Positions 26,511 to 27,121 of a DNA stretch of 64,000 nucleotides are shown here, piece after piece. The number at the start of each line of letters is the position of its first letter. The stretch's first letter is position 1. The position numbers and the translations under genes were made by a program. Source of the DNA: Burkholderiales bacterium (GTDB lineage Bacteria; Pseudomonadota; Gammaproteobacteria; Burkholderiales; Burkholderiaceae_C); NCBI GenBank assembly GCA_013044035.1, contig JABEVE010000031.1, forward strand, positions 1-64,000, read 5' to 3'. A model generated the notes under the pieces. It was not told the origin of the DNA, did no database searches, and saw only the letters and a program-made list of their open reading frames with translations.

Positions 26511-27121
26511 GGCGGTGTGGAGGCGAATGAAGGGGTAAGACCGGCGGCGTCCAACAACACCGAGGCACGGCCATCGAGCAGCAAGCTGTCGCCGGCCAGC
26601 ACGCGAAACTGATAGAGCAGCATCTGCGCGTCGCCTGACAGACGCTCGACGCACACCTCCAGTGCCGCAGCGATGTCGTCGATCCGAGCCACATGCAGTT
26701 GCACCGTGCGCAGGCTCACCAGCAAACCGCCGGGCCGCCCCAAGGTTGGCTGGCCCCCTTGGGGGGCGTCCGCTTGCGGACGATTGGGGGCAGTCACCAG
26801 CAAACCGCCGGGCCGCCCCAAGGTTGGCTGGCCGTCATCGGGAGTGTTACTCAGATCAGGCATACAGCCATGCTCAGCCACGAGCGCGCCATGCACCGCC
26901 ATCGTCTGCGCTGCGTATTCGATGCCGCATGCCGCGCCGAGGCGGTCGAACTGGCGCAGTGGGTTGCTGGCGTCGCGGTGGCTGGTGGCGCTGCAGACGA
27001 GGTGTTGCGTGTCCCAGCGCAGCACTGCGTCCAGCAGGCACATGCTGCCCTGATGCGGGATATGTGCCGCGATCCATGCATGGTCCAGTGGGACATGCCC
27101 CAGGTGCGCAGGCTTTAGCAT
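26507..27121 (-). CDS. Hot-dog 3-hydroxyacyl-ACP dehydratase, ApeP-type, with repeat insertion
   Basis: A 204-residue protein whose ends match the ApeP-type dehydratase of aryl polyene clusters: IAAHIPHQGSMCLLDAVLRWD at residues 17-37 and a late LLYQFRVLAGDSLLLDGRASVLL. It should dehydrate 3-hydroxyacyl-ACP to the enoyl form retained in the polyene. In the middle, residues 97-109 (GQPTLGRPGGLLV) recur exactly at 123-135, because a 40-bp DNA repeat flanks a palindromic element. The insertion keeps the frame and the sequence resumes with SLRTVQLHVARIDD, so the protein may still work. The start MLKPAHLGHVPL overlaps the chain-length-factor gene by seven bases. Confidence 0.86.
   Translation of the reverse strand: MLKPAHLGHVPLDHAWIAAHIPHQGSMCLLDAVLRWDTQHLVCSATSHRDASNPLRQFDRLGAACGIEYAAQTMAVHGALVAEHGCMPDLSNTPDDGQPTLGRPGGLLVTAPNRPQADAPQGGQPTLGRPGGLLVSLRTVQLHVARIDDIAAALEVCVERLSGDAQMLLYQFRVLAGDSLLLDGRASVLLDAAGLTPSFASTPP
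26716..26833. repeat. REP-like palindromic element C with 40-bp direct repeats, inside the dehydratase gene
   Basis: The 40-bp sequence at 26716-26755 (beginning TCACCAGCAAACCGCC) recurs exactly at 26794-26833. The 38 bp between them are a palindromic core: GCCCCCTTGGGGGGC followed by GTCCGC-TT-GCGGAC and ATTGGGGGC. The repeat period is 78 bp, a multiple of three. The core matches elements A and B in hrpA in layout. Confidence 0.9.

Follow-up and report, generated by a model that had tools for sequence, protein, structure and literature searches.

The window analyzed here, a 64,000-nucleotide stretch of DNA from a Burkholderiales bacterium, carries an open reading frame on the minus strand (27238 to 26507) with a likely start at 27121 and a stop at 26507. 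The gene so delimited (26507 to 27121) encodes an ApeP-like hot-dog dehydratase of 204 amino acids with an insert, an assignment based on orthologs, a structural model, and a Foldseek search. Two ketosynthase-type genes lie upstream on the same strand (27115 to 27969 and 27966 to 29252), and a fabG-type reductase gene (25752 to 26510) comes after it; these adjoining synthase and reductase genes match their own families. An Xre/MbcA-type antitoxin gene (24637 to 25086, plus strand), followed by a RES-domain gene (25083 to 25547, plus strand), has a glycosyltransferase gene on one side and, on the other, the fabG-type gene belonging to the biosynthetic cluster.

Within the ApeP-like gene, positions 26716 to 26755 are identical to positions 26794 to 26833, an exact 40-bp repeat with a period of 78 bp that was found by a repeat search and read directly from the letters of the window. 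We judge such a repeat to be well beyond chance. It belongs to the sole direct-repeat family detected (26716 to 26769 and 26794 to 26847, spaced 78 bp apart and 89% identical over 54 nt, with the first 40 nt identical), and it doubles the peptide GQPTLGRPGGLLV in frame. Reading the letters also revealed two hairpins, CGTCCGC-TT-GCGGACG at 26767 to 26782 and CCCCC-TT-GGGGG at 26754 to 26765, and a 10-bp stem with one mismatch (CCAGCAAACC/GGTTGGCTGG) in each 40-mer, where 26719 to 26728 pairs with 26744 to 26753. An inverted-repeat search of the window was empty, the hairpin arms here being shorter than its 12-nt limit, and the output of Tandem Repeats Finder did not include the 40-bp/78-bp repeat. 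The repeat, its period, its palindromic core, and a peptide doubled without a break in frame had all been described in an earlier sequence-only reading of this DNA, with coordinates that proved exact.

In gene order, along the minus strand, the inserted stretch (26866 to 26734, residues about 86 to 130) contains the first 40-bp repeat (26794 to 26833), which encodes GQPTLGRPGGLLV and corresponds to the 3' hairpin of an element unit. It is followed by a core (26756 to 26793) comprising the CGTCCGC/GCGGACG hairpin and part of the C-run/G-run hairpin, and then by the second 40-bp repeat (26716 to 26755), the end of which overlaps an ancestral RPG-LVS motif. Comparison by eye with the dispersed copies described below delimits one complete 78-bp unit (26716 to 26793); we take the remaining 40 bp (26794 to 26833) to be the 3' portion of a second unit truncated at its 5' end.

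The window's protein had no match in Pfam or NCBIfam, and none in Pfam even at an E value of 1. Against the Pfam ApeP-like family (PF22817), the ortholog of one relative (G013) and three orthologs lacking the insert scored 12.0 to 22.6 bits, under the cutoff of 27, and the protein of a second relative (G023) gave no match. A Foldseek search of the PDB placed chain B of the ApeI:P complex of Xenorhabdus doucetiae first (6qsr_B; E = 3.5e-07) and FabZ structures next, in a ranking taken from the best 50 of 1234 matches (E up to 10). On predicted fold and neighborhood, the window gene is ApeP-like without passing any family cutoff. An AlphaFold model built on an alignment of 53 sequences (the window's and those of related loci) has ten-residue blocks averaging at least 90 in pLDDT over residues 11 to 80 and 131 to 190. 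Residues 86 to 128, which make up the insert, have a pLDDT below 50 and are predicted to be unstructured beside a confident hot-dog fold, with the caveat that a low value is expected wherever the alignment offers no homologs for a stretch; the C-terminal tail is also low. The model is consistent with the surface loop proposed in the sequence-only reading.

Filled and empty sites among relatives

The ApeP-like gene was found in 29 of the 60 genomes searched (including the window's own, G000), among them 25 of the 28 genomes of the genus. Only three of these 25 orthologs (G000, G013, and G023) carry the insert of ~40 extra residues; it is absent from the other 22 and from all four orthologs outside the genus, and the search was repeated with a shorter query as well. 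G013 and G023 are the two nearest relatives of the window's genome. Three nearer empty orthologs were also compared (example reading, AVHGALAAPQDAPPRPGMLVSVRAVQLH), one of them from a record titled Thiomonas sp. STB_93, which matches none of the 25 genus ortholog loci compared. Both the window's genome, in 108 contigs, and G023 are draft assemblies, and at the ApeP-like locus G023 is the metagenome-assembled genome JA6.bin13 (611 of 611 sampled 40-mers).

Judged from these sequences, the insert is not ancestral. The ortholog comparison that had been named as the refuting test of the sequence-only reading did not refute it, the peptide being present in the three close relatives alone among the 29 orthologs. 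Empty orthologs have the motif RPGMLVS at the site, where the last residues of the 40-mer read RPGGLLVS. With codons at the end of the repeat so similar to the ancestral ones for RPGMLVS, some of the similarity could be older than the insertion; on this comparison, the end of the second repeat is not wholly extra, and the end of the element and its target have short stretches in common.

The three carriers differ in the number of units that they hold. There are two in the window (78-bp spacing), two in G013 (81 bp), and four in G023 (81 bp), the last nearly identical to one another. Across the three species, 31 nt around the 13-mer CTTGGGGCGGCCC are identical in all eight copies; the flanks of the gene are 87 to 91% alike, and the cores are only 71 to 79% alike, yet every core still forms a hairpin.

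An insert of about 40 residues in an enzyme of about 160 might impair or inactivate the gene, and the lack of any Pfam match for the window's protein would fit such an effect, though its empty relatives also fall below the cutoff. However, the frame is open in all three carriers, the conserved residues are kept, and the adjoining synthase and reductase genes match their families. We regard impairment as improbable.

Filled and empty sites were also found in other genes. At the PutA site, G013 and G023 are filled, and G002, G005, G020, and G021 are shorter by 81 bp (27 codons); in this comparison (which includes PutA loci L230, L231, and L232), four of eleven sequences fell outside the search expression and were left out. 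The window's genome has 18 bp (6 codons) more at this site than the four empty relatives, perhaps the remnant of a deletion. For the NAD(P)H-hydrate enzyme, the sequences of G000, G013, and G023 match through the site, and 23 others break there. Relatives of PutA and of an ABC ATPase in the PDB lack the insert, with 5 and 13 residues where the queries have 36 and 40, respectively.

A dispersed palindromic family with copies inside genes

The 13-mer CTTGGGGCGGCCC occurs in 26 of the 28 genomes of the genus, 0 to 116 times per genome, compared with 0 or 1 time for its reversed control. The sequence-only reading had suggested searching the genome for further copies of the core, and the search did uncover a dispersed family, small in the window's own genome (9 exact 13-mers against 1 for the control, and 28 against 11 with a looser pattern). 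Thirty copies inspected from G004 look alike and recent. From the G013 copies, we derived by eye a consensus of about 80 bp with three consecutive hairpins (TGAGCGCCCCCAGGGTCGGCTCGCCGACCCGCCCCCCGTGGGGGTCAAGGAAACTTGGGGCGGCCCTGCGTTTCCTTGAGAG). Its 3' stem is Watson-Crick paired in 79% of cells over 63 distinct sequences, compared with 54% for shuffled partners (maximum of 300 shuffles, 58.6%), figures that serve as a guide since the 63 sequences include some chance matches and the copies are related. When the stem was slid, pairing reached at most 33%, a value slightly understated for slides toward the 3' end.

In an order-wide scan with CTTGGGGCGGCCC, at least one match was present in 40 of 150 genomes (including the window's own), with at most 3 for the control, and five genomes besides the window's own had 15 to 62 matches (G084, G118, G153, G168, and G173). 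We therefore rejected the description of the family as genus specific, and the distribution suggests that its relatives are patchy beyond the genus. A previous scan of the order with AACNTTGGGGCGGCCC, a pattern that the common form AAACTTGGGG does not fit, had matched in 2 of 200 genomes, including the window's own. Two loci that bear the element (L160 and L173; 6,002 bases) had no Rfam match at E values up to 0.1. In a plasmid search with the written consensus, 3 of 72,556 records matched, one of them a Burkholderia arboris replicon with full coverage at 78%.

Copies within genes were surveyed in G013 (3 contigs, 99% complete), for which we fetched all places with up to one mismatch and some of those with two, a partial set of 55 distinct places. 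The coding character of the flanks was scored by codon usage trained on the window, which framed 345 of 350 test windows correctly, these being from its own training genes. Nineteen of the 55 places lie inside one open frame. Four were dropped (L142, L157, L164, and the minus-strand copy in L194), the element lying near the end of the open reading frame or one flank looking noncoding; the copies in PriA (L187) and the ApeP-like gene (L133) were kept although scoring over a different span called only one flank coding. A place in L178 identical in sequence to L168 had been removed as a duplicate. The 15 remaining copies represent 13 sites in 12 genes, encoding the ApeP-like protein (two units), a glycosyltransferase, a ChaN-like protein (two units), a tetrapyrrole methylase, an acyl-CoA dehydrogenase, an NAD(P)H-hydrate epimerase/dehydratase, an AcrB-family pump, an ABC ATPase, PutA, PriA, a DUF2126/transglutaminase protein (two sites), and a molybdopterin-binding protein. 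Counting one copy per site, five of the six reading frames are used. Five of these genes have a Pfam domain that spans the site, with 24 to 118 residues beyond the profile positions. The DUF2126/transglutaminase gene (L188:1-3618) has two inserts and perhaps a third (GGAPSPDLPHAWGRSESPLPAGGEG).

Several of the G013 copies that are not internal to genes start at about the stop codon of the upstream open reading frame, and the TGA of the element apparently serves as the stop. The copies in L127, L154, L156, L159, L177, and L184 lie outside genes and start in this way. L172, also among the 55 places, probably matched by chance within a GTPase gene; it reads VGRPNVGKS, which we take to be a GTPase motif. 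Among the G013 places inspected for open frames and coding flanks, no copy was seen plainly splitting a gene out of frame.

Selection of the insert for a role in the enzyme, such as contact with a partner or carrier protein, with the number of units tuned accordingly, would be in keeping with a frame that is open in three species and with the identity of the 31-nt stretch in all eight copies when the flanks differ by 9 to 13%. The element's peptides occur, however, in unrelated proteins and in five frames, the insert is predicted to be unstructured, and the number of units varies, leaving such a role unlikely. A simple tandem duplication of sequence already in the gene, without the involvement of a mobile element, would suit the exact 40-bp copies, the nearly identical 81-bp units of G023, and the RPGMLVS already in the ancestral gene but is very unlikely given that the same sequence and hairpins recur at unrelated loci in the window's genome and across the genus and that the aligned empty orthologs offer no source for the core or CTTGGGGCGG.

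Mobility and change in unit number

Comparisons at the sequence level establish insertion relative to orthologs, dispersal, in-frame copies in unrelated genes, and change in unit number. With high confidence, we interpret the feature as one copy, lying within the gene and in frame, of a palindromic element that is dispersed, about 80 bp long, and made of three hairpins. The sequence-only reading had offered two options, insertion of a protein-coding REP or recent duplication, and both turn out to apply: a dispersed palindromic element was inserted, and its units stand in tandem, their number differing among three relatives.

An ancestor shared by the three carriers would have received the element in the loop that joins the central helix to the strand after it, the element spreading by transposition or by copying of its hairpin. 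An open frame and an exposed, disordered loop may explain why the insert survived. No transposase tied to the element was found, nor was a consistent target-site duplication seen by eye among dispersed copies or at the PutA site. The Y1_Tnp (RAYT) domain occurs in 10 of the 28 genus genomes. The four with the most copies of the element (G004, G026, G027, and G018) lack it, and it is most abundant in G021 (9 matches), where the 13-mer count is 1; a general role for RAYT/Y1_Tnp as the mobilizer is unsupported, as its presence does not track element copy number over the 28 genomes. G000, G013, and G023 have one divergent match each, so it might play a role in these three carriers.

Whole units could later have been gained or lost through slippage or unequal exchange between the 40-bp repeats, and such changes would keep the frame, units being 78 or 81 bp long (26 or 27 codons). 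The ChaN-like gene has one unit in the window's genome and two in G013. The window's genome also has two units 78 bp apart near the N terminus of a ferritin-like gene, where they could precede the true start. Tandem spacings compiled from five genomes, in any context and with those of about two units left out, range from 78 to 90 bp; 81 bp is the commonest (24 of 54), and 32 of 54 are multiples of three. The arms of the hairpins seem to change in step, which would reflect either selection of the structure for mobility or the use of one arm as a template in repair of the other. A more speculative proposal, which we consider doubtful, is that the element of this betaproteobacterial lineage is frame-neutral through its commonest period (81 bp, 27 codons) and can enter core enzymes, where it grows or contracts as a coding minisatellite and leaves related species with length variants of one enzyme (2/2/4 units in the ApeP-like gene and 1/2 in the ChaN-like gene); template switching, not selection, would then rewrite the two hairpin arms jointly. 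A glycosyltransferase-like gene of the window's genome (L007:589-2124; weak Pfam matches only) apparently contains two pieces of the element, one N-terminal and one internal.

Relation to known palindromic elements

Rickettsia palindromic elements (RPEs) were reportedly described by Ogata in 2000 and 2002. In the sections of two papers that treat them, RPEs are dispersed hairpin repeats found between genes and in frame within conserved genes, and the product of gmk carrying an RPE is reported to be translated and active (PMC2229807, PMC10969869). The present element is likewise dispersed, palindromic with stem pairing kept, in frame within conserved genes, and absent from orthologs. Compared with RPEs as these sections present them (105 to 150 bp), it is betaproteobacterial, G+C rich, about 80 bp long, and made of three hairpins, and it forms head-to-tail arrays with a changing number of units; we liken the two by kind and not by descent.

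GTAG/CGTC-tagged REPs, in the portions of the paper that deal with them, are short palindromes mostly beside the 3' ends of genes, where they sometimes provide the stop codon; they also occur inside genes such as uvrA, and clusters encode 43 to 82 residues in Thauera and R. conorii (PMC3733652). Unlike these, our consensus has neither tag on either strand (by eye) and its unit is longer; CGTC does occur in the window's variant of the core, though not in the consensus. The words Thiomonas and Burkholderia are absent from the main text of PMC3733652. The 107-bp Correia element, ERIC, and YPAL are presented, in a section of PMC2229807, as small nonautonomous mobile sequences with open frames that are fused in frame to genes, produce target-site duplications, and mostly have terminal inverted repeats. 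Our element resembles these, as described there, in being nonautonomous and fused in frame to genes, but no consistent duplication was seen for it by eye.

The mode of insertion is of a kind already known from RPEs and intragenic REPs; for the element family itself, we found no description in the open-access literature, which is a weak negative. Its most distinctive trait is a tandem unit of ~27 codons that changes in number inside genes. Frequent in-frame palindromic insertion, best known from Rickettsia, is extended here to a betaproteobacterial genus with genomes of about 3 to 5 Mb, in which near relatives provide filled and empty sites for several enzymes. Two questions become testable, namely, how an element moves without an evident transposase and how often selfish DNA yields tolerated, possibly useful gene segments by this known but little-studied route.

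Arrays of the 13-mer are also seen in the wider order. In another genus of the same family (G084:C1:2692309-2692645), at least five copies stand at an exact 81-bp spacing, and in G118, from the order scan, the spacing within arrays is mostly 108 to 111 bp.
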